From the NCBI GenBank assembly GCA_024641735.1, contig JAHECN010000013.1, forward strand, positions 1 to 34,263: a stretch of 34,263 nucleotides of DNA, written 5' to 3'. The notes under the pieces were generated by a model that made no database searches, had not been told where the DNA came from, and saw only the letters and a program-made list of their open reading frames with translations. This document shows positions 2,259 through 20,805 of the stretch, piece by piece. The translations under genes were made by a program, and so were the position numbers. Every line of letters begins with the position of its first letter. Position 1 is the stretch's first letter. The DNA is from Gemmatimonadota bacterium. Lineage in GTDB: Bacteria; Gemmatimonadota; Gemmatimonadetes; Gemmatimonadales; GWC2-71-9.

Positions 2259-2984
2259 TCAGCGCGTCGGTTCGGCCGAGAGCCGCTTCTGATACTCGGC
2301 CGGGGATGTCAGGAAGTGACAGGTGGTGCACTCCTGCTTGGGCACATGGGCGCGCTGCGGCTCGTGACAGGTGACGCAGAAGCCACGATCCGGCGTGAGC
2401 ATGGCCACGGTTTCTGCGGCATGACAATCGTCACACTTCTGATGGCTCGCACGCTCGTGTGCCCCGAGCAGGTCGGGCGACCGATGACAGGACGCGCAGT
2501 CGCGTTGCGAGGTATGGTGGCTCTCGTGGCAGGAGGTGCAGCTGGCGACTTCCTTGCTTGGCGCCAGGTTGGGTGCCACGTGACAGGTCGCACAGGTTGT
2601 CGCGCGATGCTGACTATGATCGAGCTTCCGGCGCGGCAGCACGCCGTCCGCGGGGGGCGCGGGAGGTGTGAGGATTGCCTTGTGACAGGCGCTGCATTCA
2701 CGCATCTCGATCTGTCCGCGCATCGCCGCCTGATGGTGACAGAGATCACAGCCGCGCGGCACTTCGAAGACCAGCGCGCTGCCGTCGCCTCCTACCCGAT
2801 GGCAGGTCAGGCAGGCGAGCGCCGTATGCCGTGCATGGGGAAAGGAGTCCACGCGGACCACGTGGACGGCGGATGGAAGCTTCGGGGTCGCGGACAGTGT
2901 GCTCACGCGTGTGCCCGAGAACGCCACGAGCACTCCTGCACCCAGCAACATTGCCCGCCATCCAATTCCGGCATGCCCTGTCAT
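2259..2984 (-). CDS. Nonahaem c-type cytochrome (cytochrome c3/c7-like), exported
   Basis: The 241-residue protein has an N-terminal hydrophobic export segment (about residues 8-25) followed by nine CX2CH motifs: CLTCH, CDLCH, CSACH, CATCH, CTSCH, CASCH, CDDCH, CVTCH and CTTCH. Additional histidines (for example SFPHARH, LDHSQH, SHHTSQ) can serve as distal axial ligands. One haem per roughly 24 residues is the density of periplasmic electron-carrier cytochromes of the c3/c7 type. AGGAG at 2994-2998 lies nine bases before the ATG and supports the start. It lies 67 bases downstream of a membrane-anchored TPR gene on the same strand, possibly the same transcript. Likely role: electron shuttle in the periplasm, serving the porin-type cytochromes that follow. 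The specific partner is inference. Confidence 0.88.
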   Translation of the reverse strand: MTGHAGIGWRAMLLGAGVLVAFSGTRVSTLSATPKLPSAVHVVRVDSFPHARHTALACLTCHRVGGDGSALVFEVPRGCDLCHHQAAMRGQIEMRECSACHKAILTPPAPPADGVLPRRKLDHSQHRATTCATCHVAPNLAPSKEVASCTSCHESHHTSQRDCASCHRSPDLLGAHERASHQKCDDCHAAETVAMLTPDRGFCVTCHEPQRAHVPKQECTTCHFLTSPAEYQKRLSAEPTR

Positions 2985-5214: not shown

Positions 5215-5754
5215 ATGCGAACCACCACGATTCCCACGATCCTCCTCCTTCTCGGCGTTACGATGGCGCCCGCGCCGGCGTTCGGCCAAGAGACCTTCAC
5301 CTATGTGGGGGTTGCGGCCTGCGGCAAGTGCCACAAGACCGAGAAGATCGGCAATCAACTGGCCATCTGGGAGGGGACCAAGCACTCGAAAGCCTTCGAG
5401 AGCTTGAGCACTCCCGTGGCGGACAGCATCGCGTTGGCGAAGGGCCTCACGACCAAGGCCGCAGACTCAAAAGAGTGCCGGGAGTGCCACACCACCGGTG
5501 GCCCCGACTCCGGTGTTGACGCGAAGGAAGGCGTCGGCTGCGAAGCATGCCACAACGCTGGCTCGGGCTACCGCGTCCTCAAGATCATGAAGGACAAGCC
5601 GACGGCCGTCGAGAAGGGGCTACGTACCTTTGCAGACGCGGCAGCCATCGAGGCGCAATGCCGGACCTGCCACAACGAGCGGAGTCCGACCGCGAAGGAG
5701 TTCGACTTCAAGGAACGGTGGGAGAAGATCAAGCACCTGCGTCCGGTCGAGTAA
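5215..5754 (+). CDS. Tetrahaem cytochrome c554-type protein, periplasmic
   Basis: The 179 residues open with a signal peptide (about 1-24, ending AFG) and continue YVGVAACGKCHKTEKIG, the usual opening of cytochrome c554-family domains, where the haem motif is followed by a Trp/Lys-His segment (IWEGTKHSKAFESL). Four CX2CH motifs are present: CGKCH, CRECH, CEACH and CRTCH. The C-terminus FKERWEKIKHLRP is also common in this group. It probably acts as a small periplasmic electron carrier, and its position directly behind the Cyc2-like gene suggests that it could accept or donate electrons there. No clear Shine-Dalgarno site precedes the ATG. It is separated from the porin gene by a terminator, so it may have its own promoter, which I could not locate. 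Confidence 0.87.
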   Translation: MRTTTIPTILLLLGVTMAPAPAFGQETFTYVGVAACGKCHKTEKIGNQLAIWEGTKHSKAFESLSTPVADSIALAKGLTTKAADSKECRECHTTGGPDSGVDAKEGVGCEACHNAGSGYRVLKIMKDKPTAVEKGLRTFADAAAIEAQCRTCHNERSPTAKEFDFKERWEKIKHLRPVE

Positions 5755-5783
5755 CGGCGCAGACACCCAATGCGAACGACGAA

Positions 5784-5813
5784 AGGCCCCGACCAGATGG
5801 TCGGGGCCTCTTT
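5784..5813. terminator. Bidirectional intrinsic terminator between convergent genes
   Basis: A stem of GGCCCCGACC with GGTCGGGGCC around a 4-base loop is flanked by AAA on one side and CTTT on the other. It can therefore end both the tetrahaem cytochrome transcript and the convergent msrB transcript. Confidence 0.88.
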
Positions 5814-5831
5814 GCGTTTCCCAGCACGGTG

Positions 5832-6284
5832 TCAGTCGCCCTTGGAGGAGAACAGGTTGAGGAATTGTCCATAGCCAGACGCCTCAAGTTCCGCGACCGG
5901 AATGAACCGCAGCGCTGCCGAATTAATGCAGTATCGCAGGCCATTGGGGCCTGGGCCATCCGGAAAGACATGGCCGAGGTGTGAATCCGCGCCCGCGGAA
6001 CGGACTTCAATCCGCTCCACGAACAACTTGTGGTCGCGCTTGGTGGTCAGCGCATCGGGTTGGAGGGGCTGCGTGAAGGAGGGCCAGCCACAGCCGGAGT
6101 CGAACTTGTCGCGCGACGTGAAGAGCGGCTCGCCGGAAACAATGTCGACATAGAGTCCTTCGCGGGTCTCGTCGTGGTAGGGATTCTGAAACGGGGGCTC
6201 GGTCGCCTCGTGCTGCGTCACCTGGTACTGCAGTGGTGTCAGGCGCTGGCGAAGCTCGGCGTCGCTGGGCTTGGGGGTCGGCAT
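5832..6284 (-). CDS. msrB: Peptide-methionine (R)-S-oxide reductase
   Basis: This enzyme reduces methionine-R-sulfoxide in proteins using thioredoxin. The 150 residues contain the signatures SGCGWPSF (Cys65, in the position of the resolving cysteine), HLGHVFPDG (102-110) and [11 protein letters not shown] with the catalytic Cys119. The two CX2C zinc pairs found in many MsrB proteins are absent; the usual CxxC position reads DIVSGEPLF, so this is the zinc-free subtype. There is no signal peptide, so it should be cytoplasmic. GGAG at 6291-6294 supports the ATG start. It is inserted between two cytochrome transcription units and shares a bidirectional terminator with one of them. A repair role against oxidative stress fits, but a functional link to the cytochromes is only suggested by location. 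Confidence 0.95.
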
Positions 6285-6297
6285 CGGGGGCTCCAGG

Positions 6298-6318
6298 GTA
6301 GACAGTGCTGTAGTCTAC
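6298..6318. repeat. Small inverted repeat in the msrB leader
   Basis: GTAGAC and GTCTAC are separated by nine bases, about 14 bases upstream of the msrB start and beside its ribosome binding site. It could be an operator or an RNA hairpin near the ribosome site. A six-base arm is short enough to arise by chance. Confidence 0.3.
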
Positions 6319-6349
6319 GCTAGAACCCCCACTTTTGTTCCCTCAGCTG

Positions 6350-7789
6350 CTACTGCCGCCGGGGAATCGCGGTGCCGTGGCACGCGGTGCAGAGCTGCGG
6401 GTTCTTCCGGAGCAGCCGCTCCGAATCGAAGTTCGGCCCGTGGGGTGAGTATCCGCGCCCCTTCACAACCGAATGGCAGGTCAGACAGTCTCGCTCGACG
6501 TGACACGACGCGCAGCTCTCGAGTGCCTGCCGCGCAGCCTGACCGTGGCCGACGAAGAACTGGCGGTTGCCGTCGTGATACCCTCCGGCACCCAGGAGAG
6601 AGCGTTGGGTCACGACGCCGGCACTCTGGTGACAGCTCTGACAGAACTGTGCCTGATTGTGACAGTCGGAACAGGTGCCGGAGCGGCTGTACGCCTCCGC
6701 AGGATGCCGCGTCAGGAAACTCGCCGGGTGGTAGCCATTACGGCCCGCCGGATCGGGGACGTGACAGGCCAGACAGCTCTCCCGGCGGTGACAGCTGGCA
6801 CAACTCCGCATGGATGCATCGGCGACCGGCCCATGACTCGTCTTCCACGTTGGTGTATGGCTGGACGGGAGTTTTCCGGTGGTGGAGGCTCCGTGTCCCC
6901 GGTCCGGCCCAGCGCTGAAGAGCGCGCGTGCCGTGCCGGGGAGCTGCGCGTTGTGACAGGCTGCACAGCTCTCCTGCGTGTGGCAGGTGCGGCAGGCACT
7001 AGCGTTCTGCGTTCCGTGTCGCGTCTCGAAGTCGCCCTTGGCGTGGTCGGCAGGTGCTGCGACCGGCGGCGGTGTGGCCGTGGCCGCGGCGTTGAGGCCG
7101 AGCGCCTGAATCTGGGGCACCTCGGGCGCGTTCACATGGCAGGCGACGCAATAGGTGCGGACGTGGCAGGTGGCACAACTGACCGCGACGTGGCCGGATC
7201 CGGTCGTTGCCTTCGCCTGCGCACCATGGGCGGAGGCCGCTTGGAAATTCGGGGCGTCGTGGCTGGGTGGCTTGGGGAAGGCCGCAATCCGTTCCGACGT
7301 CAGGCCTGCGGCGCGCGAGAGTGGCACGTGACAGGTCGCGCAGGCGGAATCGGGCAACGACACGTGGCTCTTGGCCGGAAGCTTGTGGCAGGTCAGGCAC
7401 TGCTCCGCCTGCGGCCCGCGCACACTCATCCACTTGCCACCACTCGCCGTGTGACAGTCGGCACAGGTCCCTGGTGTCCGGCGGCCGCGCTTGGCGAGAT
7501 GCTGGACATGGTTGAACGCCAGGTTGCTGGCGCGCGGTGTGGCGGGAGCCTTCCAGGTCACCACAGGCTGCCGCGTGCCGTCGTGGCACGCAGCACACTG
7601 CACGGCGGTGGGGTACATCGTGGCCCCAGCGCGTTCGGCCGCGGTGTGGCAGGTACTGCAGCTGACGAAGAGCTTGGCATGCTTGGGGTGACTGAACGTT
7701 TCCTCCGCGGCTGGACTCCGGGCCGCGAGAAACGCGACGCCGCAGAGGGCCGAGAGCACAAAGCCACCGAACAACGCGCGAATTCTCAT
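6350..7789 (-). CDS. Hexadecahaem (16-haem) c-type cytochrome, exported
   Basis: The 479 residues begin with a signal peptide (RIRALFGGFVLSALCGVAFL, cleaved near SPAAEE) and carry 16 CX2CH motifs. Ten of them form five closely spaced pairs of the pattern CX2CH-X4-5-CX2CH: CATCHVRTYCVACH, CRTCHTQESCAACH, CASCHRRESCLACH, CSDCHNQAQFCQSCH and CASCHVERDCLTCH. The ATG at 7789 is chosen over a longer frame beginning at 7828 because it makes an ATGA overlap with the upstream barrel gene and is followed directly by the signal peptide. As the last gene of a four-gene operon with a porin and two other multihaem proteins, it is likely a periplasmic or barrel-embedded electron conduit subunit. That role is inferred from context. 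Confidence 0.9.
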   Translation of the reverse strand: MRIRALFGGFVLSALCGVAFLAARSPAAEETFSHPKHAKLFVSCSTCHTAAERAGATMYPTAVQCAACHDGTRQPVVTWKAPATPRASNLAFNHVQHLAKRGRRTPGTCADCHTASGGKWMSVRGPQAEQCLTCHKLPAKSHVSLPDSACATCHVPLSRAAGLTSERIAAFPKPPSHDAPNFQAASAHGAQAKATTGSGHVAVSCATCHVRTYCVACHVNAPEVPQIQALGLNAAATATPPPVAAPADHAKGDFETRHGTQNASACRTCHTQESCAACHNAQLPGTARALFSAGPDRGHGASTTGKLPSSHTPTWKTSHGPVADASMRSCASCHRRESCLACHVPDPAGRNGYHPASFLTRHPAEAYSRSGTCSDCHNQAQFCQSCHQSAGVVTQRSLLGAGGYHDGNRQFFVGHGQAARQALESCASCHVERDCLTCHSVVKGRGYSPHGPNFDSERLLRKNPQLCTACHGTAIPRRQ

Positions 7790-9285
7790 GGAGTCACCTG
7801 CCGCGGGCGCCCGGGAGGGAGCGACCACCGATCGGGTTCAGAGCGGAGGGTGAGCGACGCGCGCACGCCCATGCGCCACTGGTTCCAATCGAACGCGGCG
7901 GCATCGGGACGATCGCGTGACTCCCAATAGCGATCGACCGTTGCCCCAACATTCCACCGATCCGCCACGCGGTAGTCCGCCGCGGCACCCAGCCACGTCA
8001 CGCCGGCATCCTGAAAGCGCAGCTCCAACGGCCGCTCAAGCGCCCCACCCTGCACCGACACCGTCCACGACTCCTGCATCCGCCACGTCACGCGGCCGTC
8101 CACTCCACGCGATGACGCACCGGGAAGGAACTCGGAGTGGGCTCCGCCTTGCACAGTCCAACCCTCGACAGGCGTGACGGTGGCTTCGAGGCCAGCGCGC
8201 CAGCCACGATCTTCGATCGTGACCGTCGGGGTGGTCGCTCCTGCCGCGTCATACCGGAACCACTCGCCAGATCCCCGCACCTGAATTTTTGAGGTGATCC
8301 CAACTCCGAGCGTTCCGTTCACGCCGCGGTACGGCGTGGGCGAGAAGACGCCCCAAACCGTCCACAGATCAAAGAAGGGGCGGTAGTGACGGGCACCGAC
8401 CGTCGCCCAGAGTCGCGGTGCGGTGTAGGCGAGCGCGACCTCCGCCGTGCCGAGATTTCCTTGGGCAAGGTCGTAGTCACCACCACCGGTGAGGCGGACG
8501 CGCGCTGTCGGCCGAAACTGGACGGAAAGCGCGGCGCGTTCCGACACGAAGTAATCGGAGACCGGATCCACTTCACGACGATACTCCACTTCAGCATTGA
8601 CGCGCGGGAGGTGCGCGCCGAGCGTGGCACCCGCGACCAACTGCCGCGCTTCCGGGGCGTAGTCAAGCAGCGGATTCACGGCTGGGCTGGTCACGGACAA
8701 GAGTGTGCCGCGGGCAAAGCCCCAGCCGCCATAGAGCGAGAGGTCGAGCGGCACCTGGTCGAGTCGCAACGCGGCGCGGCCTCCATCGATCGCGCCGAGC
8801 GCGGAATTGCCGAGCCGACCGTGGTCGGGGATGCGTCCCCCTTCGAAGGTCCAGCCATCCCGGATGTATTCCGCGTAGGCTTCCTGCACTTGTGTGGTTG
8901 GGGAGCTGCCGGGCCAAAGGCGATCGCCCGTGAGATCGGTGTGGAGCCGTGAGCGTACGCGCACGCGGAGCCCGCTGATGCCGAAACCCCACATCGTCAG
9001 ATCGCTGGTGAGCGTCGCGGGAACGCCTCGTCGGAGTTCGCCGGGTCGCCAGTAGTGACAATAGCCGTCGTTGAAGCAATTCACGGCGAAGCCATCTGGA
9101 GTGATCTTGCCACTACTGAGGCCAGTCAGCGCATCTGCTTCGGGAATGCTATCGGCGATGACGCCACGAAAGCCGACGCGCTGCCCGGCCGCGTCAAGCC
9201 GCAGGCGCCATGACTGTGCCGTCGCGGACGGTGCCACCGCGAGGGCGAGTCCCACTCCAACGGCGACGGCGGGGAGGAAGCGCAT
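7786..9285 (-). CDS. Outer-membrane beta-barrel protein of the cytochrome operon
   Basis: 499 residues: a signal peptide (about 1-23, cleaved after ATA before QSWRLRLD) followed by repeated amphipathic beta-strands with aromatic girdles (for example WRMQESWTVSVQGGALE, DWNQWRMGVRASLTL). There is no haem motif and only two cysteines. I recognise no named porin family. Length and strand pattern fit a barrel of roughly 20 or more strands, comparable to MtrB-like or PCC porins that wrap a multihaem cytochrome. The start is the ATG at 9285, which shares a base with the preceding stop (TGATG); the frame also has a TTG one codon earlier. Its stop overlaps the next gene's start. Placement between two multihaem cytochrome genes implies a role as the sheath of an outer-membrane electron conduit. 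The lack of recognisable homology to MtrB is notable. Confidence 0.8.
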   Translation of the reverse strand: MRFLPAVAVGVGLALAVAPSATAQSWRLRLDAAGQRVGFRGVIADSIPEADALTGLSSGKITPDGFAVNCFNDGYCHYWRPGELRRGVPATLTSDLTMWGFGISGLRVRVRSRLHTDLTGDRLWPGSSPTTQVQEAYAEYIRDGWTFEGGRIPDHGRLGNSALGAIDGGRAALRLDQVPLDLSLYGGWGFARGTLLSVTSPAVNPLLDYAPEARQLVAGATLGAHLPRVNAEVEYRREVDPVSDYFVSERAALSVQFRPTARVRLTGGGDYDLAQGNLGTAEVALAYTAPRLWATVGARHYRPFFDLWTVWGVFSPTPYRGVNGTLGVGITSKIQVRGSGEWFRYDAAGATTPTVTIEDRGWRAGLEATVTPVEGWTVQGGAHSEFLPGASSRGVDGRVTWRMQESWTVSVQGGALERPLELRFQDAGVTWLGAAADYRVADRWNVGATVDRYWESRDRPDAAAFDWNQWRMGVRASLTLRSEPDRWSLPPGRPRQVTP

Positions 9286-10670
9286 CAATCACCGCCGATG
9301 GGCGGGCCTCCCTTCAGGGAGGCCCTGTCGCCCGTACCGTGCGGTGACAGAGGTGCCGTCAGAGAGGGAGTGCGCCCCGTCGTGTGGGCGGCGCTCACGC
9401 GCCGCCGCACGACCTTCATGGTATCGAAGGGCATCGGCGGTCGCAGCTTGCCCCGTTGCTGCACCTCACGATGGCAACCGACGCAATCCGACGCGTCGAC
9501 CTTGGCGGAGTGCGGCTGGTGACAGGTGAGACACTGCGACTCGACCCGTTTGTGGTTGGGGCCGATGTGGAACGGACTGTTCGCCAGATTGTCGTGACAC
9601 GTCACGCACGACGCCTTGGCATCTTGCGGAAGGGTGTCGGCATGCACGTCATGACAGGAGCCGCAATTGCCCTTGTGGGGATCGCGCTCGACCTTGTAGT
9701 CCGGGAGTTTGGCCAGCATCTCATGGCAACTGGTGCACTCCAGCACGGTCGGGCTCAACGCGAGTCCGGCGGAGTCAGGCGTCGCGAGGGCAGGGATCTC
9801 TCGACGGAACGCGTGGCAGACCGCGCAGGTGACCTCTGGCATGTCGGCCATCTTGCCCAGCTTGATATCCTTGTTCTCGTGGCAGCCCGACTGCTGACAG
9901 GTGCGCGCGGAAGGAATGAAGCGGTGGACCTCCGCCCCGTGACAGGTGACGCACTTGAGATCCTTCAACGCCGAGGAATCCGACTCGAAGTGCCGGCGGT
10001 GACCCGCCAAGGCCATCACGTTCTCCCAGCGCTCTTTCCCTGCCTTTCCTTTGACGTGACACGACTCACACCGCAGGTTGGCGACCGGCGCGTGCTTGGC
10101 GATCTCCTCGGGCCGCTCCAGCACCCAGAGCACAAGCTGGCGTGTGCTGGCGTAGATGCTCTGCTGGTGACAGTCATGGCATTGCAGTTTTTCGTGCTTG
10201 CCCGCGCCCTCGCCGAAGCGCCCGAAGGGCTTCGCCATGACGTGACAGCCGGTGCAGAAGCCGTTGTCGTGTTGCATGTAGTTCCAGCTCTTCATCCCTG
10301 CAAAGCCGGCGGCAGAGACCGCCAACAGCGCGCTCCCCGCCAATGCAACTTGAATCTCACGCGAGCGTGTCTTGAGCCAGGTGAAGATCTCCTCGCGCTT
10401 CCGCCACATGAGCAGCAGCAGCCAGATCCCGACGGCGGCCGCCACGATGGCACCACTGATCTGAATCCACTGCGGCACTCCGAAGATGAAGCGCACCACT
10501 TCCGCGACACCTCCCGGAAGGGGCGCGGCGGTCACGGTGTCGCGGAGTGCGCCCACTGCCCCACCGAGGGAATCGGTGAGGCTGTCAATGAGGGCACGCA
10601 CGGAATCTCCCCCGACGCCATGACTGGCGCCGAGGGAGTCCTGAAGCAGATACACGGCCGGGCCGGCCAC
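9285..10670 (-). CDS. Membrane-anchored 11-haem cytochrome with NapC/NirT-like head
   Basis: 461 residues. About 68 N-terminal residues precede two transmembrane helices (about 69-89 and 107-125) joined by the basic loop WRKREEIFTWLKTR. The charge pattern places both the N-terminus and the haem domain in the periplasm. The first haem segment, WNYMQHDNGFCTGCHVMAKP then HEKLQCHDCH and LRCESCH, resembles NapC/NirT quinol dehydrogenases. In total there are ten CX2CH motifs and one CX4CH (CQQSGCH). The tail after the last haem is Arg/Pro-rich and low in structure. Translation starts at GTG 10670, four bases past the stop of the lipoprotein gene. Likely job: oxidise or reduce membrane quinol and pass electrons to the other cytochromes of the operon, as CymA, ImcH and CbcL do in other phyla. 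Confidence 0.88.
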   Translation of the reverse strand: MAGPAVYLLQDSLGASHGVGGDSVRALIDSLTDSLGGAVGALRDTVTAAPLPGGVAEVVRFIFGVPQWIQISGAIVAAAVGIWLLLLMWRKREEIFTWLKTRSREIQVALAGSALLAVSAAGFAGMKSWNYMQHDNGFCTGCHVMAKPFGRFGEGAGKHEKLQCHDCHQQSIYASTRQLVLWVLERPEEIAKHAPVANLRCESCHVKGKAGKERWENVMALAGHRRHFESDSSALKDLKCVTCHGAEVHRFIPSARTCQQSGCHENKDIKLGKMADMPEVTCAVCHAFRREIPALATPDSAGLALSPTVLECTSCHEMLAKLPDYKVERDPHKGNCGSCHDVHADTLPQDAKASCVTCHDNLANSPFHIGPNHKRVESQCLTCHQPHSAKVDASDCVGCHREVQQRGKLRPPMPFDTMKVVRRRVSAAHTTGRTPSLTAPLSPHGTGDRASLKGGPPIGGD

Positions 10671-10673
10671 CGC

Positions 10674-12212
10674 CTACTCTGAGCGGTGGCTGGCCGAGAC
10701 GAAGGCAGGGGCACGTACTGCGGCCGCCTGAAGTGACTGCTCCACCAGGGCCGAGATACTGGCCGGTGGCGCGGGCAGCGCGTAGGCCGTCCGCAATTCG
10801 TTGATGCTGGCGCCCAGGAGAGCCCGGGCAAGGAACGGATTGTGGACGCCTCTCGAGCGGTCACCATTCGCGTACCGGTTCTCACCGAAGGTGGTGACGT
10901 TGAATCGCGCGCCACGCGCCGGGGTGATCACCGTCGGGTTGCTGAGTTCGGCCGGCCGGTCCCGCTTGATGATGGCGAGGTAGCCGCCATCCACCGGTGC
11001 GGCATCGATCGACTGGTTGCCGTTCAGGTCAGTCCAGATCTGTGCGGACAAGGTCTCAATCTCGGACCGCGCCAATGCAAGGCGTCCGGCGGCGATTGAT
11101 TCCGTCGCGTGGCAACCTGAGCCCAGGCAGCTCTTGAACGAACGAGCCGGCGGCGTGAAGGCGCAGCTACCATCGGCGATGGGGACGCCTTGCGCATTCA
11201 GACAGGGAATCGCCTTGAAGAGGTGGCCCGTGGAGCTGAAGACGAAGTTGCCCGACGTCGGATCGGTGATCGTGTACCGATTGACGTGACAGCCAGCGCA
11301 GAGCCGCGGGTTCGCGGAACTGGCGTGGGTCGTGAGCGAGATGTTCGGGTCGATCGAGACGCCCGCCGGCCGATAGCCACCGGTGCCCAGCACCACGAAG
11401 CCCTGTGGCGCGTGCGGCGTGTCGCGACCGCCGTCCACCGCCTCGCCGCGCCGCATGTGACACTTCATGCAGAGGTTCTGTTCGGGGTCCGAGGTCGCGA
11501 TCGGGAAGCGCAACTGGGCCGTGTTGGCCGAGCCATGCGGATCGTGACAGACCGCGCACGTCGTCGGGACGGCTCCCGTCGAATCCTTCTCGACGTAGTT
11601 GGTGTTGGCACCCCACGCCGTGAGCACCGTCCGACCGTCGTGACAGGCCGCACCACAGCTGCTGGTCGTGGCAACGAGGGAATGGCCACTCTGCGCCCAC
11701 TCATCCGCGAAGCCATGGTGCGAGCCGGTGTGACACGCCGCGCATGACTGACCGGTCACCGTCATCGTGATCCGCGCGAGCGGCTGGTTCACCTTCACGG
11801 AGGGATCCTGCACGTGCAACGTGCCAGGTCCGTGACAGGACTCACACTGGACGTCGTTGTAGGCGCTGTCCGCCTTCACGTTGTAGCCCGACGCCACCGA
11901 CAGCTTGTTGCCGTTCTCGGTGGTCGCATGGCAGGCCCAGCACGTCCGCGTCGGATCGATGTTGCGATCCGTCAGCGTCTTGTGCGCCGACGCATGCGCC
12001 GTCTGCTTCCACCGCGTCTGATGTCCGACGTGGCAATTGCCGCACGACGTCTGCTTGGTGGAGGCTTTGTAGTAACCGAGCAATCCACTCGCCGCATCGA
12101 CTGGCGGATTGAATGGCTCACGATCGCGATAGACAATTTCGGTCGTGGTACAGCCAGCGACCACGAGCGCGAGCAACGCAGCGCGCGCAACCGAACGAAG
12201 CACGGGAACCAT
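10674..12212 (-). CDS. Multihaem cytochrome c lipoprotein, nine haem motifs
   Basis: 512 residues beginning with a lipoprotein signal (VPVLRSVARAALLALVVAGC, lipidated Cys21). Nine haem motifs follow: seven CX2CH (CGNCH, CWACH, CESCH, CAACH, CAVCH, CMKCH, CAGCH), one CX3CH (CGAACH) and one CX4CH (CLGSGCH). The first haem block, CGNCHVGHQTRWKQTAHASA, resembles c554-like and DmsE-like multihaem proteins. The region behind the haems has an EF-hand-like DLNGNQSID and the phrase GVHNPFLARALL, common near the end of multihaem cytochromes. The start at 12212 is preferred to the longest frame (12371) because GGGAGG lies five bases upstream and the lipobox then falls correctly. It is first in the operon. 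Attachment to the outer membrane is likely; whether it faces outside cannot be told. Confidence 0.88.
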   Translation of the reverse strand: MVPVLRSVARAALLALVVAGCTTTEIVYRDREPFNPPVDAASGLLGYYKASTKQTSCGNCHVGHQTRWKQTAHASAHKTLTDRNIDPTRTCWACHATTENGNKLSVASGYNVKADSAYNDVQCESCHGPGTLHVQDPSVKVNQPLARITMTVTGQSCAACHTGSHHGFADEWAQSGHSLVATTSSCGAACHDGRTVLTAWGANTNYVEKDSTGAVPTTCAVCHDPHGSANTAQLRFPIATSDPEQNLCMKCHMRRGEAVDGGRDTPHAPQGFVVLGTGGYRPAGVSIDPNISLTTHASSANPRLCAGCHVNRYTITDPTSGNFVFSSTGHLFKAIPCLNAQGVPIADGSCAFTPPARSFKSCLGSGCHATESIAAGRLALARSEIETLSAQIWTDLNGNQSIDAAPVDGGYLAIIKRDRPAELSNPTVITPARGARFNVTTFGENRYANGDRSRGVHNPFLARALLGASINELRTAYALPAPPASISALVEQSLQAAAVRAPAFVSASHRSE

Positions 12213-14915: not shown

Positions 14916-16856
14916 TCCTGACAGCTCCCCTTCCAAATACGTGTACCCTTCCAACCCCGCCACATAATCCGCGATAAAGGCGTTGGCATCCTGCCGCTTC
15001 AGGCCCTTGGCCCGCGCCACCTTGCGTCGGAAAGTCGCCAGCAGGTCGGAGGCGTGGAACTGCACGTAGGTCAGGACTTCGGTCACCGTGTCGCCGTGGA
15101 CGAGATCGGTGATCTCGTAGCCGCCCTCCTTCAATCGGACGTGCACGGCGTTGGTATCACCAAACAGATTGTGCAAGTCGCCGAGGATTTCCTGATAGGC
15201 GCCCGTCAGGAAGATGCCGAGGATGTAGGGCTCGTTCTCGCGCAACCGGTGCAGTTCCAGCGAGGGCTTCCCCTTGCGCCCTCCAGTGAACCGATCGATC
15301 ACGCCGTCGGAATCACAGGTCACGTCCTGAATGGTCCCGCGACGGGTCGGGAGCTCGTTCAGGCGGTGGATCGGCATGACCGGGAAGAGCTGATCGATGG
15401 CCCAGTTGTCGGGCACCGACTGGAAGATCGAGAAGTTGCAGAAATAACGATCAACCAGCGTGGTCTCGAGGTGCGCCACCACCTCCGGATAGGAGGCCTG
15501 GTCATCCGCGATCGCGACCGCGAGCGCATTGAGCGTCGTCAGGTAGAGCTGCTCGGCGTTCGCCCGCTCACGCAGGGAATACACGCCAGTCGCGAAATAC
15601 TCCTGCGCACGCTCCTTGGCAAAGAGCGCGTCGTGAAAGACTTCCTCAATGCGATCGACCGTGAGCGAGTCCAGATGCTCCTGCATGTCGAGCAGCAATT
15701 GCTGTGCATCCTCCTCGAGCACGACACGCTGCGGCTCGTATTGGGATTCGCAATCGATCACGTTCACCAGCAGCAACGAGTGGTGTGCCGTGATGGCGCG
15801 TCCCGACTCCGAGATCAGGTGCGGCATCGGGAGTTCTTCGTTCCGACAAATCGTCCCGATGGTGTACACCACGTCGTTGGCGTACTCACGCATGGTGTAG
15901 TTCATCGAGGCGGGGCGCGTGGAATGGGTGCCGTCATAGTCGACGCCGAGCCCACCACCCACGTCCACGTGACTGATATCAAAACCCATCTTCCGGAGCT
16001 CGACATAGTAGCGCCCGACTTCCTCCAGTCCCGCCTTCACAAAGCGGATGTCGGTGATCTGACTGCCGAGATGGAAGTGGACCAACTTCAGGAGGTGTTG
16101 CTTCCCTGCCTTGGTCAGGGTGTCGAGAAGTCGGACAAGTTCGACCGCCGAGAGGCCGAACTTTGACTTCTCGCCGCCGCTCTTGGCCCAACGCCCCGAG
16201 CCCTCGGTGGCCAGCTTGATGCGCACGCCGAGGGTCGGCTCGACCCCCATCTCGTCGGCCACCTTGAGGAGCACCTCGAGCTCGCTCGGTTGTTCCAGCA
16301 CCAGCACCACCTTGTGCCCGAGCTGCTGGCCGATCAGGGCGAGGCGCATGAACTCCTCGTCCTTGTAGCCGTTGCAGATGATCAGATGGGAGGTCGACTC
16401 GTGCAGGCCGAGGATCGCCATGAGTTCCGGCTTGGAGCCGCACTCCAGGCCGACGCCCAGCGGGGTGCCGAACTCGACGATCTCCTGCACCACGTGGCGC
16501 TGCTGATTGACCTTGATCGGGTAGACAGTGGTGTAACTTCCTTCGTAGCCGAATTCCTCGATCGCGCCACGGAAGCGGTCCGCCAGCTCCGCGATACGCG
16601 AGTGGAGGATATCGGAGAAGCGCAGCAGCAGCGGAAGGCCGACGCCCTGCGCATTGAGGTCTGTCGCGATCTGGTAGAGATCGATCCCTGGATGGTCCGA
16701 ACCGTCAGGGTGCACGACCACGTGCCCCTCGTCACTCACCCGGAAGTAACCCAGTCCCCATCCTGCCATGTTGTAGAGCTTCTCGGAGTCCGCGACGGTC
16801 CACTTGGCGGGATCCGCGTTGGCGGGGATGACGAACGGGGGGTGAGTCTTGACCAT
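14907..16856 (-). CDS. speA: Biosynthetic arginine decarboxylase
   Basis: PLP enzyme that converts arginine to agmatine in polyamine synthesis. 649 residues, matching the usual 630-660. It has the alanine-racemase-like barrel with the PLP lysine Lys115 in VYPIKVNQQR, the phosphate and substrate loops LVHFHLGSQI and DVGGGLGVDYDGT, the ESGRAITAHH motif, and the C-terminal beta domain with the family ending GYTYLEGE. The start is ATG 16856 with GGAGG at 16862-16866; the open frame extends to 16928 but the extra residues are not family-like. Its last three codons (GAG TCG TGA) lie inside the repeat between it and gltA. It is divergent from the M50 protease gene. Confidence 0.95.
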   Translation of the reverse strand: MVKTHPPFVIPANADPAKWTVADSEKLYNMAGWGLGYFRVSDEGHVVVHPDGSDHPGIDLYQIATDLNAQGVGLPLLLRFSDILHSRIAELADRFRGAIEEFGYEGSYTTVYPIKVNQQRHVVQEIVEFGTPLGVGLECGSKPELMAILGLHESTSHLIICNGYKDEEFMRLALIGQQLGHKVVLVLEQPSELEVLLKVADEMGVEPTLGVRIKLATEGSGRWAKSGGEKSKFGLSAVELVRLLDTLTKAGKQHLLKLVHFHLGSQITDIRFVKAGLEEVGRYYVELRKMGFDISHVDVGGGLGVDYDGTHSTRPASMNYTMREYANDVVYTIGTICRNEELPMPHLISESGRAITAHHSLLLVNVIDCESQYEPQRVVLEEDAQQLLLDMQEHLDSLTVDRIEEVFHDALFAKERAQEYFATGVYSLRERANAEQLYLTTLNALAVAIADDQASYPEVVAHLETTLVDRYFCNFSIFQSVPDNWAIDQLFPVMPIHRLNELPTRRGTIQDVTCDSDGVIDRFTGGRKGKPSLELHRLRENEPYILGIFLTGAYQEILGDLHNLFGDTNAVHVRLKEGGYEITDLVHGDTVTEVLTYVQFHASDLLATFRRKVARAKGLKRQDANAFIADYVAGLEGYTYLEGELSGES

Positions 16857-17041
16857 CGAGGCCTCCGGCTGGTGGAACAGGGGTTCGTGAGGGGGACAAA
16901 GGTAACGGACGAGACCGGGGAGGGACACCCGAACGTCAGGCTCGGCCCGGAGTCCCGGGGCCGGCGATCACACAGAGGAGGGTTGGTGGATTCACGCGCA
17001 GGCAATCGAGTCGTCGGCACGTCCATCCGGACGGAGGCCTC
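16857..17041. promoter_or_regulatory. Divergent promoter region with matching leader ends
   Basis: This 185-base gap separates speA (minus) from the M50 protease gene (plus). The same ten bases, CGGAGGCCTC, stand immediately before both starts (16858-16867 on the minus strand, 17032-17041 on the plus strand), and each holds the GGAGG ribosome site. I could not identify reliable promoter boxes. Confidence 0.5.
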
Positions 17042-18139
17042 GTGAGTTGGTCAATCCGGCTGGGACGGGTTGGCGAGACCCAGGTGCGCGTCCATACGAC
17101 CCTCCTGCTCTTGATCGCATGGTACGCCTGGGGCGGCTGGCAGGACGCGGGCCCGTCGGGTGCGGTGGACCAGATCGCGTTCCTGACGCTCCTCTTTCTC
17201 TCGATCCTGCTGCACGAGTTCGGGCATATCTTCGCGGCACGGCACTACGGCATCGGGACGCCGGATGTCCTGCTCACCCCGATCGGTGGGGTGGCACGGA
17301 TCGCATCGCTCCCGGACAAGCCACGGCAGGAACTGGTCATCGCGCTGGCAGGGCCCGCGGTCACTCTCGTGATCGCTTTAGGCCTCGGCGCCGTGCTCTA
17401 CTCGCAGTCTGGTGGCGTCCGTGTCCCGGGGCAGTGGAGCGGCCTGTCGCTGGTCGAATCGCTCTGCTGGACCAATGTGATCCTCCTCCTCTTCAATCTG
17501 CTGCCGGCCTTCCCGATGGATGGGGGTCGCGTCCTGCGGGCCCTGCTCGCCATGCGCCTCGGGCTGGTGCGTGGCACGCGGATCGCCGCCCGCGTTGGCC
17601 AACTCGTCGCGGTCGGCTTTGCCTACTATGGATTGCAGTCGTCTCCCATGTTGCTGTTGATCGCGGTCTTCGTCTTTCTTGGCGCCCAAGCGGAGTTGGA
17701 GATGGTGCAGCGTCGGCCCAGCACCGACGACAACAGCGCGACCCGACTGGTCACGACGGATGTCCGGGTGGTCGCACCGGGGCGCCGGCTGGAGGACGTC
17801 GTGGCGCTCTTTGCGCACGGCGCGCAGCACGCCTTTCCCGTGACCTCCCCCAACGGCGAGCTGCTTGGCATCCTCACGCGCGATGATGTCCTGCACGGCA
17901 TCAGCACCCACGGTCTCAGTGCCTTAGTCTCCGAGGTGATGGTTCCTCCCCGGGAGGATCATGTCGTCCGCATCGACGCGGACTTTGTCACCGCCGCCGC
18001 GCACCTCTTCGCGTCCGGACGTAACGCGCTCCCGGTCGTCGACCCGGAGGGGCGGTTCGTCGGGATCATCACCGTGGATCATGTCACTGATGTGCTCTTG
18101 GTTCGACCCTTGATGGCCCAGGGAGGAACAGAACGATGA
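17042..18139 (+). CDS. Site-2 protease family (M50) membrane metalloprotease with CBS domain pair
   Basis: 365 residues. A membrane domain of about 220 residues carries the zinc motif HEFGH (58-62) in one helix and the third zinc ligand in NLLPAFPMDGGR (Asp160). It is followed by two CBS repeats (about 235-355) with the pattern FPVTSPNGELLGILTRDD and LPVVDPEGRFVGIITVDH. Site-2 proteases cut membrane-embedded substrates; the CBS pair usually senses adenine nucleotides and may gate activity. The GTG start at 17042 is preceded by GGAGG (17033-17037). The stop overlaps the next gene's start (ATGA, 18136-18139), so the two are translationally coupled. The substrate is unknown. Confidence 0.92.
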   Translation: MSWSIRLGRVGETQVRVHTTLLLLIAWYAWGGWQDAGPSGAVDQIAFLTLLFLSILLHEFGHIFAARHYGIGTPDVLLTPIGGVARIASLPDKPRQELVIALAGPAVTLVIALGLGAVLYSQSGGVRVPGQWSGLSLVESLCWTNVILLLFNLLPAFPMDGGRVLRALLAMRLGLVRGTRIAARVGQLVAVGFAYYGLQSSPMLLLIAVFVFLGAQAELEMVQRRPSTDDNSATRLVTTDVRVVAPGRRLEDVVALFAHGAQHAFPVTSPNGELLGILTRDDVLHGISTHGLSALVSEVMVPPREDHVVRIDADFVTAAAHLFASGRNALPVVDPEGRFVGIITVDHVTDVLLVRPLMAQGGTER

Positions 18140-19053
18140 CGGGACTGCCTCGAATTGCGATCACTGGCGCATCGGGACTGCTCGGTCGTGCACTGACACC
18201 GTTCCTGGAAAGTCGGGGCTATCAGGTGGTGCCCGTCTCCCGGCGCGCGATGATGGGTGGCATTCAATGGGATCCTGCTTCGGGGCAACTCGAGAAGGCG
18301 GCGTTCGAAGGTCTGGACGGTGTAATCCACTTGGCCGGCGAGAATATCGCGGAGGGACGGTGGAGCGCCTCACGGAAGCGTGCCCTGCGCGACAGCCGCA
18401 TCGTACCGACCACACTGCTGTCCGAAGCACTTGCGCGCGTAGAGCAGCCACCGCGTGTGCTCATCTCCGCATCGGCGATCGGGATCTATGGCGATCGCGG
18501 CGACGCCATCGTGGACGAGTCGTCACCGCCAGCAGACGATTTTCTCGGCACACTCGGAACGGCATGGGAGGGCGCGGCCGACGCCGCGAGGGCAGCGGGA
18601 ATCCGCGTGGTACATCCGCGGCTGGGGATCGTCCTCACTCCGGAGGGCGGCGCACTCGGCAAGATGCTGCCGACCGCTCGGCTCGGGCTGGGTGGCCCGC
18701 TTGGCAACGGCCAGCAATGGATGAGTTGGATCGCCATCGAGGACGTACTGGAAGTCTTTGCCCGGATGCTCACGGACGAGACGCTCGTCGGCGCCGTCAA
18801 CGTCGTCGCGCCGAATCCGGTGCGCAACCAGGAATTCGCGGAAACGCTCGGGCGAGTCCTCGGGAGACCAGCCCTGCTTCCCGTTCCCGCCTTCGCGCTG
18901 CGCGCCTTGTTCGGTGAGATGGCGGATGCCGCACTGCTGTCGAGCACGCGGGTCCTGCCAGCCCGATTGTCGGACGCGGGCTATACGTTCCGCGAGCCGA
19001 CACTGGAAGGCGCGCTCCGCCAGCTCCTGCTCGGCACGGGCCGCGACGACTAG
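18136..19053 (+). CDS. TIGR01777-family NAD-dependent epimerase-like protein (YfcH/SulA-like)
   Basis: 305 residues with an extended short-chain dehydrogenase fold. The Rossmann motif is GASGLLG at 11-17, followed by the family signature [15 protein letters not shown], then [15 protein letters not shown] and [13 protein letters not shown]. The C-terminal domain (about 225-300) resembles the DUF1731 segment, with [22 protein letters not shown]. The reaction of this family is not established. It overlaps the upstream protease gene by four bases. At its 3' end it shares the palindromic CTAG with the convergent nitroreductase gene, so that both TAG stops overlap (19050-19053). Confidence 0.93.
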
Positions 19054-19727
19054 CGGAAGTTCGCGATCGCCGAGAGCGGCTTCCGTTGGAGATCGGGAAC
19101 CTTGGCATCGTCTGCGGGATATCCCGCGACCACCATCATGATGGCACGCTCATTTGCCGGACGCTCCAGGATCTCGTTCAGATACCCCATCGGGTTGGGG
19201 GTGTGGGTGAGCGTGGCCAGCCCGGCGTGATGCAGCCCGGCAATCAGGAATCCCGTGGCGATCCCCACCGACTCCATCACGTAATAGTGCGTCTGCCGAG
19301 TGCCGGCCGCATCGAGCCCGTAGCGTTCGGCAAAGACCACGATGAGGTAGGGCGCGATCTCAAGGTATGGCTTGTGGGCATCGGTGCCGAGTGGCGCGAG
19401 GGCCTCAAGCCACTCGGCAGGAGCAGACGAATAGAACTCGGCCTCGGATTCTTCCGCCGCGACCCGAATCTTCCGCTTCATCTCCGAGCTGCTCACCACT
19501 TCAAAATGCCACGGCTGCTGGTGTGCCCCACTCGGTGCGGTACCAGCGGCTTCCAGACAGGCCTCGATCACCGCACGATCCACTGGCCGATCGGAGAATT
19601 GGCGTACCGTCCGACGACGCTGCATTTCGGCGGCGAAATGCCGACTGCGCGCCAGCATTTCATCGGGCGGGTACTCCCGATAGCTCGCGAGCGGAATGAA
19701 GCCGGGTTGATCGAGGGAAGGCACCAT
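19050..19727 (-). CDS. Nitroreductase-fold flavoprotein, iodotyrosine deiodinase-like
   Basis: 225 residues of the FMN-dependent nitroreductase superfamily. FMN-binding features are [13 protein letters not shown] (37-49) and [18 protein letters not shown]. The rest matches iodotyrosine deiodinase unusually well from my memory of that family: an active-site lid with Glu95, Tyr99 and Lys119 in the positions that clamp the substrate's amino-acid group, [19 protein letters not shown], and a closing [18 protein letters not shown]. In that family the enzyme removes halogen reductively from halotyrosines. The native substrate here is not known, and a plain nitroreductase is possible. GGAG lies seven bases before the ATG. 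It appears monocistronic, tail-to-tail with the epimerase-like gene. Confidence 0.88.
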
Positions 19728-19869
19728 CAGTTGCTCCGGGGGTCACTGGGGTTACGGATCGTGTGGTAAGCTGTGGGAGGCGCGCCCGGCAGGGCAAGCG
19801 GATGGGTTGAACGCGCCGACACCGACCGGGTACACTTCCCGTACCTCACTTCAGGATGGCGGCGCTCCC

Positions 19870-20805
19870 GTGACCGACATGACGACGACCATTCAGCGCT
19901 GGCTCGCCGACCCGACCTTCGGAAAGTTGATCACGCTGGTACTCGGCATCCTGCTGATCGTCACCCTCGTCAAGTTCCTCAGCAATTCACTCCGACGCGT
20001 CATCTCAGACTCTGAGGCACGCTACCGCGCCCGCAAGCTGGTCACCTTCGGCGGCTACATCGCCGCGGTACTGCTCGTGCTCACCGTGTACAGCGGTCGG
20101 TTCGGTGGACTCACCGTCATCATCGGCGTCGCGGGCGCGGGGATTGCCTTCGCGCTGCAGGAAGTGATCGCGTCGTTCGCCGGGTGGTTCGCGATTGCGA
20201 TGTCTGGTTTCTATCGCACTGGCGACCGCGTCCAACTCGGTGGCATCAAGGGCGACGTGATCGACATCGGCGTGCTGCGCACCACGCTGATGGAAGTCGG
20301 CGAGTGGGTGAAGGGCGACCTCTATACCGGCCGGTTGGTGCGCATCGCCAACAGCTTCGTCTTCAAGGAACCGGTGTTCAACTACTCCGGGGACTTCCCC
20401 TTCCTGTGGGATGAAATCACACTCCCGGTCAAGTATGGCACGGACTGGAAGCTGGCACGCACCATCCTGAACAAGGTGGGGAACGAGGTCGTCGGGGATT
20501 ACACCAAGGGGGCACACCACGCCTGGCAGGAGATCACCAAGAGTTTCCTGGTCGAGGACGCCGCCGTCGATCCGATGGTGACGATGGTCGCCAACGACAA
20601 TTGGATTGAGTTCACCTTGCGGTATGTGGTGGACTACAAGAGTCGGCGCCGCACGAAGGATCGTCTCTTCACGCGGATCCTCGAGGAGATCGATCTCACC
20701 GACGGACGGATCGCGATCGCTTCGGCGACGTTCCATCTGGTCGAGGCACCGACGTTCGACGTGCGCGTACGCGGACATGCGGCGGAGGCACCACCCTCGA
20801 GTTGA
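19870..20805 (+). CDS. MscS-family mechanosensitive channel
   Basis: About 311 residues: N-terminal membrane helices (about 15-40 and 52-70), then a pore-like helix with VIIGVAGAGIAFALQEVIASFAGWF, typical of the MscS pore region, then the soluble beta domain (YRTGDRVQLGGIKGDVIDI) and a C-terminal alpha/beta part. Compared with E. coli MscS, the loop after the beta domain is longer and the tail differs, as in MscS-like relatives in many phyla. Such channels release solutes on osmotic downshock. The start is uncertain: GTG 19870, ATG 19879 or a TTG at 19807 are all in frame, and none has a strong ribosome site. A second, unrelated MscS copy lies at 24274-25173. Confidence 0.87.
   Translation: MTDMTTTIQRWLADPTFGKLITLVLGILLIVTLVKFLSNSLRRVISDSEARYRARKLVTFGGYIAAVLLVLTVYSGRFGGLTVIIGVAGAGIAFALQEVIASFAGWFAIAMSGFYRTGDRVQLGGIKGDVIDIGVLRTTLMEVGEWVKGDLYTGRLVRIANSFVFKEPVFNYSGDFPFLWDEITLPVKYGTDWKLARTILNKVGNEVVGDYTKGAHHAWQEITKSFLVEDAAVDPMVTMVANDNWIEFTLRYVVDYKSRRRTKDRLFTRILEEIDLTDGRIAIASATFHLVEAPTFDVRVRGHAAEAPPSS

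Follow-up and report, generated by a model that had tools for sequence, protein, structure and literature searches.

A conserved Gemmatimonadota operon encodes a candidate porin-cytochrome conduit with an unnamed outer-membrane barrel family

Results

A minus-strand operon of cytochromes and an outer-membrane barrel

The genes described here probably encode a porin-cytochrome conduit of a new family, which would work like MtrCAB or the conduits of Geobacter. They lie in a window of 34,263 nucleotides (the whole stretch of DNA that was analysed) from a genome of 2.75 Mb that is 96% complete. The features are as follows.

P1, 10674-12212, minus strand: 512 aa; nine-haem lipoprotein cytochrome, proposed surface terminus
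P2, 9285-10670, minus strand: 461 aa; 11-haem NapC/NrfH-type membrane cytochrome (N-module), proposed to oxidise quinol
P3, 7786-9285, minus strand: 499 aa; outer-membrane beta-barrel of an unnamed family
P4, 6350-7789, minus strand: 479 aa; exported 16-haem cytochrome, proposed barrel-lodged wire
C-module gene, 2259-2984, minus strand: separate exported nine-haem cytochrome; homologue of the part that forms the C-terminal half of P2 where relatives have it fused
P2/P3 overlap, 9283-9287, minus strand: stop/start TGATG, read from the sequence
P3/P4 overlap, 7786-7789, minus strand: stop/start ATGA, read from the sequence

A preliminary description of this DNA had listed four coupled minus-strand genes in the order P1, P2, P3, P4, and all the ORFs are as it described them. 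Its haem counts (9, 11 and 16 for P1, P2 and P4, respectively) were borne out by our motif count, and the overlaps that it placed at 9285 (TGATG) and 7786 (ATGA) are both exact. The spacing of four bases that it gave between P1 and P2 has to be corrected, as three bases separate the stop codon of P1 from the GTG of P2. A total of 36 haem motifs across three ORFs (P1, P2 and P4) is far beyond chance, and cytochrome c assembly proteins are encoded in the genome. So is the recurrence of this gene order, which a conserved-operon search recovered from dozens of genomes. The four genes are thus real, but a fifth one, the C-module gene, belongs to the set and had been overlooked.

P3 represents a barrel family separate from MtrB

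P3 carries no haem motif, and it gave neither a Pfam or NCBIfam match above cut-off nor a sequence match in the PDB. When 69 members of its family were scanned against Pfam and NCBIfam, no named porin was recovered, and a profile search of the PDB produced nothing significant. Just one of these members matched the MtrB_PioB model (PF11854), at E=0.024 and below cut-off, and there were scattered weak matches to generic barrels (Porin_4/OMP_b-brl, OccD porins). As a positive control, PF11854 detected full-length MtrB in 11 of 149 genomes of the class, with E-values of about 1e-70 to 1e-116; most of these MtrB genes have an adjacent decahaem gene (e.g. L166-L175), and in four genomes (G016, G020, G054 and G124) true MtrB and the P3 barrel co-occur. 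Because the model finds true MtrB in the class, in four cases alongside P3, we consider P3 a family separate from MtrB. The claim that the barrel matches neither MtrB nor any other named porin therefore held in HMM searches with the MtrB/PioB profile, Pfam, NCBIfam and the PDB. Alignment of the P3 profile with that of the class MtrB (hhalign) reached 62% over 173 columns only, and the two types of barrel may have a distant common origin. Membership of P3 in the MtrB family was rejected on PF11854, on hhalign over most of the barrel, and on fold size and strand number.

In the AlphaFold model of P3, a confident one (pLDDT 86, pTM 0.80), the barrel begins directly after the signal peptide and contains no plug. 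Manual counting on this model gave 22 strands, a number that treats residues 75-87 and 89-99, interrupted at a single residue, as one strand; with this count the short turns and long loops alternate consistently. Standard geometry predicts a backbone diameter near 40 Å, compared with 47 Å for 26 strands. Length across the family is 491 ± 10 aa, with a mature barrel of about 475 residues, and a pair of cysteines near the N-terminus (C70 and C76) is nearly invariant. In the known barrels of 22 strands, TonB-dependent receptors for example, a plug is present. As P3 appears to be plug-less, unlike these barrels, its lumen would need another occupant. Foldseek was discarded as a classifier of this barrel because its many generic matches were not discriminating: all that it returned were large barrels of a generic kind, among them MtrB (6r2q_B), which at TM 0.35/0.28 ranked behind many unrelated barrels.

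P4 is built from two-haem modules

The assignment of P4 as a 16-haem cytochrome was supported by the count of 16 CXXCH motifs, though its construction from two-haem modules had gone unnoticed. An N-terminal part of about 120 residues matches HmcA, c7 and ActA profiles, and the match of the P4 profile to HmcA structures (E=4e-15) is limited to residues 40-161. This part is followed by five modules of the form CX2CHX4CX2CH, with one extra residue between the two motifs of the fifth pair. The corresponding DNA pattern occurs four times genome-wide, always in P4. Among 74 relatives, 69 have 16 haems in the five-pair arrangement, three have 18 haems and six pairs, and two have 14 haems and four pairs; shorter forms also exist. 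Of the histidines that are not part of a haem motif, 15 reach a conservation of at least 90%, which fits bis-His haems that transfer electrons.

An identification of P4 as HmcA was rejected on the NCBIfam HmcA equivalog, against which it scored 29 bits for a cut-off of 400. The AlphaFold model is poor after residue 350, and structure search was set aside given this unreliable C-terminal region, with Foldseek giving only weak matches to alternative complex III.

P1 resembles surface reductases and also MtrA

P1 has a lipobox (VVAGC) and nine haem motifs, seven of them CXXCH, one CX3CH and one CX4CH. By a simple pattern the lipobox is present in 30 of 42 relatives. The family profile matched 6qvm ('Multiheme cytochrome cf', E=1.3e-18 over residues 91-456) and 6i5b (E=3.8e-16), which we take to be OmhA of Carboxydothermus and OcwA of Thermincola, respectively. 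OcwA acts at the cell surface as a terminal reductase (PMC6703420). P1 is likely a surface terminus, its profile similarity and nine haems fitting the OcwA/OmhA type. It could also face the periplasm, as its profile resembles MtrA too: in hhalign its alignment to an MtrA-like profile from this class (99.2%, E=1.6e-19) was stronger than that of either P4 or the C-module. Since P1 resembles both OcwA/OmhA and MtrA, homology does not settle its position. Cross-matches to DmsE, c3, c7 and NrfA were disregarded as evidence of identity because all these proteins share dense CXXCH motifs.

P2 is one half of a protein that is fused in most relatives

P2 contains ten CXXCH motifs and one CX4CH, two hydrophobic segments and a CXXCHxM sequence. 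It matched the NrfH model over residues 112-245 (E=1.7e-9), below the NrfH equivalog cut-off, and its family profile matched the NrfH structure 2j7a (E=1.2e-11). On these profile matches P2 is a relative of the NapC/NirT/NrfH quinol dehydrogenases, not NrfH itself. The preliminary description had its NapC-like type and its 11 haems right, but P2 corresponds to no more than the N-terminal half of the proteins in its family. The fused P2 of relatives has about 650 aa, with 17-19 CXXCH and longer-spaced motifs that bring it to about 20 haems. P2 of the window ends where the linker of these proteins begins, without their nine-haem C-module.

A search of its own genome for the missing domain gave a match at 2274-2846 on the minus strand (E=2e-58, 53% identity to the C-module of a congener), within the ORF at 2259-2984, which has its own hydrophobic leader and nine CXXCH motifs. 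An MsrB gene and two opposite-strand genes separate it from the operon, to which it therefore no longer belongs. Sequencing loss was rejected as the whole explanation of the short P2, as the window does contain the missing half, at another place and with a leader of its own.

Profiles of the two half-modules were applied to 78 loci from relatives. The gene before the barrel is an N+C fusion in 42 of them and a C-module without a detected N-module in another 17, some of these cut by contig ends. Free-standing C-modules with their own leader are found in L086, L099, L103 and L125, the C-module does not adjoin the barrel in L105 and L120, and L147 has an independent split of the opposite kind, with the N-module moved away from the barrel. 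The free C-modules and L147 indicate that both fusion and fission have happened, the window being one form of the split.

The P3-P4 pair is widespread and almost obligate

When 198 genomes of the class were searched with P3, 64 proved to have it, spread over 45 of 89 genera. With a profile of 69 rows, 75 of 249 genomes of the phylum matched, 71 of them within the class. Presence is patchy even within the genus, where four members have P3 and two near-complete genomes lack it.

A P4 relative adjoins P3 in all 40 neighbourhoods fetched around P3, mostly in the order P1, P2, P3, P4. Conversely, the search with P4, restricted to one genome per species, yielded the 78 loci, nearly all of them Gemmatimonadota by title and none evidently from an isolate. 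P3 lies immediately upstream of P4 in 74 of the 78, and three of the four exceptions are close to a contig start. The two genes overlap in 51 of these 74 pairs, by exactly four bases in 45. P3 and P4 are thus an almost obligate pair.

Two loci carry other titles, one Krumholzibacteriota and one Kuenenia; the latter (L094) is probably a misbinned Gemmatimonadota contig. The former (L134) holds a full P1, P2, P3, P4 operon at 5480-11389 (plus strand) on a 275-kb contig. In L101 two opposed copies of the operon share one contig (5390-11401, plus strand, and 15155-20426, minus strand), one with a fused 20-haem P2 and the other with a free C-module.

In three genomes from another class of the phylum the barrel is a distant one (40-45 bits). 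Behind it come a P4-like cytochrome with 11-12 haems (109-125 bits) and, in third place, a multihaem lipoprotein that is unrelated to P1. In these three loci no NapC-type gene was found beside the set, and no C-module gene ahead of the barrel. Their lipoprotein genes, adjoining the distant barrel and the P4-like gene (L157, 1-940; L176, 1-1032; L178, 4060-6177; all minus strand), contain many repeats of the type FHG..C..CHG.D..G..SC..CH.GPSGHP, with 24 CXXCH motifs in L178.

Other cytochrome genes in the window

On the plus strand, P5 (3839-5116, 425 aa) has one N-terminal haem motif followed by barrel-like sequence, a layout that presumably resembles the fused cytochrome-porin Cyc2. It gave no Pfam, NCBIfam or PDB match. 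A close homologue (62%) was found in one other genome, G033, most other matches covering the N-terminal third only. The adjoining P6 (5215-5754, plus strand) is an exported four-haem c554-like cytochrome whose gene has the moved C-module on one side and the conduit operon on the other; G033 carries a P6-like gene too, some 2 kb away from its homologue of P5 (L165).

Proposed electron pathway and alternatives

The operon encodes an outer-membrane beta-barrel together with multihaem cytochromes, the combination by which conduits are recognised. In the proposed pathway quinol would be oxidised at the inner membrane by P2, from which electrons would pass to the nine-haem C-module in the periplasm. 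The C-module would deliver them to P4, lying in or under the barrel P3, for passage across the outer membrane, and P4 would in turn feed the surface lipoprotein P1, where an extracellular acceptor would be reduced. Here we infer that the proteins form a complex, which of the cytochromes is lodged in the barrel, which way the electrons move and what accepts them. Entry through a NapC-type protein and a terminus like OcwA speak for outward flow, although such chains can run inward. The other class keeps a P3-P4 type pair with its lipoprotein exchanged, which supports P3 and P4 as the core, in a putative MtrB/MtrA-like role, and P1 as the surface member.

It is also possible, if doubtful, that a fused P2 of about 20 haems, P4 and P1 form an unbroken wire of some 45 haems from the quinol pool to the surface. 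Such a wire, if true, would work without any cytochrome diffusing through the periplasm. In this genome the 20-haem bridge is split, leaving the relay less complete than in relatives, and if the wire is unbroken in those we would tentatively regard the window as a derived form whose bridge was split and its outer half moved.

An assignment that we consider unlikely places the nine-haem C-module in the barrel (in relatives, the end of the 20-haem inner-membrane protein) and makes P4 a surface or periplasmic wire. In 59 of 78 loci the gene immediately preceding the barrel is a C-module or fused P2, and the haem number of the C-module is nearly constant, while P4 varies in two-haem steps within a family whose barrel keeps its length. 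P4 is nevertheless the more constant partner of the barrel, given the moved C-module of the window and the two loci where it does not adjoin, and in the other class the barrel was not seen to follow a C-module gene. It is quite unlikely that an MtrA-like P1, lipid-anchored to the inner leaflet, occupies the barrel with P4 outside the cell: the alignment of P1 with the MtrA-like profile would agree with this, but its match to OmhA/OcwA spans a longer stretch, haem-motif proteins match each other promiscuously, and the other class keeps P3 and P4 but has an unrelated lipoprotein in place of P1. Finally, P3 might be a normal porin, or a transporter of small molecules, that shares a transcript with periplasmic cytochromes, no electrons crossing the outer membrane. 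Its weak similarity to Porin_4/OMP_b-brl and OccD porins would agree with this, and so would Foldseek not favouring MtrB over other large barrels. This reading is very unlikely, since solute porins would not usually be plug-less open pores as large as this, and the obligate cytochrome partner of P3, coupled to it, is retained in both classes.

Outer-membrane electron conduits arose several times without sequence similarity, and a conduit with P3 and P4 at its core would add one more family. Its known carriers, all of them uncultured, are soil and sediment Gemmatimonadota, a widespread and hardly cultured phylum, and it would let these poorly known bacteria trade electrons with extracellular minerals. 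Sequence profiles from this family can be used for annotating such genomes. Moreover, with the quinol oxidase and the periplasmic chain fused, the passage of electrons through the periplasm becomes open to direct testing, and the two-haem steps of P4 offer a natural series for the effect of wire length.

Comparison with known conduits

MtrCAB, MtoAB and PioAB (Shewanella, Sideroxydans and Rhodopseudomonas) also combine a large barrel with a multihaem cytochrome, and MtrCAB has a surface lipoprotein cytochrome, to which P1 may correspond; P1 is distantly MtrA/DmsE-like. The differences lie in size and haem content: the PF11854 model of MtrB has 635 positions against the mature P3, MtrB (6r2q_B) has 26 strands against the 22 counted, and MtrA is a decahaem protein whereas P4 is modular with 16. 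The number of class genomes with a true MtrB exceeds the single MtrCAB that an mBio 2022 survey reported in Gemmatimonadetes (PMC8805035).

The usual conduit set, in which a barrel is joined by a periplasmic cytochrome and a lipoprotein on the surface (PMC6148476), is clustered in OmbB-OmaB-OmcB, ExtABCD, ExtEFG and OetABI of Geobacter. The loci of the other class have this layout, and so does the operon here if P1 is its surface member. The lipoprotein is the replaceable part of these conduits (PMC6148476), like P1 between classes. As described, they have no inner-membrane NapC-type gene in the cluster, and their haem numbers and order differ. The absence of an NCBIfam match for P3 bears only indirectly on its relation to the OmbB, ExtB, ExtE and OetI barrels. 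PCC3 and PCC4 clusters are putative conduits with an inner-membrane protein, mostly from Proteobacteria (PMC5566968); the haem-bearing repeats of PCC3 cytochromes resemble P4, but the inner-membrane protein is a five-helix, probably b-type one rather than NapC-like, and PCC3 porins have up to 42 strands. P1 shares its profile match and, with OcwA, its nine haems with OcwA/OmhA of Gram-positive metal reducers; unlike these, it is a lipoprotein of an outer-membrane organism, encoded inside a barrel operon. The hexadecahaem HmcA has the 16 haems of P4, most of whose two-haem modules lie outside the match.

An unnamed conduit set is known from Verrucomicrobia (PMC5615132). No paper describing the P3-P4 family in Gemmatimonadota was found in the open literature searched, although a 2026 cave survey, which figures conduit clusters, may include an earlier unnamed sighting among them (PMC13264449). 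The quinol module and conduit in one unit had been put forward as unusual. The translation-coupled operon is conserved, but there are precedents, as cymA-type genes adjoin mtrAB in several genomes (PMC6295460) and PCC3/PCC4 include an inner-membrane protein (PMC5566968); what is unusual is that in most relatives the quinol module is fused to the conduit-adjacent cytochrome. The proposal of a new type of porin-cytochrome conduit likewise stands for the barrel family and not as a new principle. New here are this family, judged so by its lack of a match in Pfam, NCBIfam and the PDB, its class-wide spread in Gemmatimonadota, the fused quinol-to-periplasm protein and the cytochrome that varies in two-haem steps.
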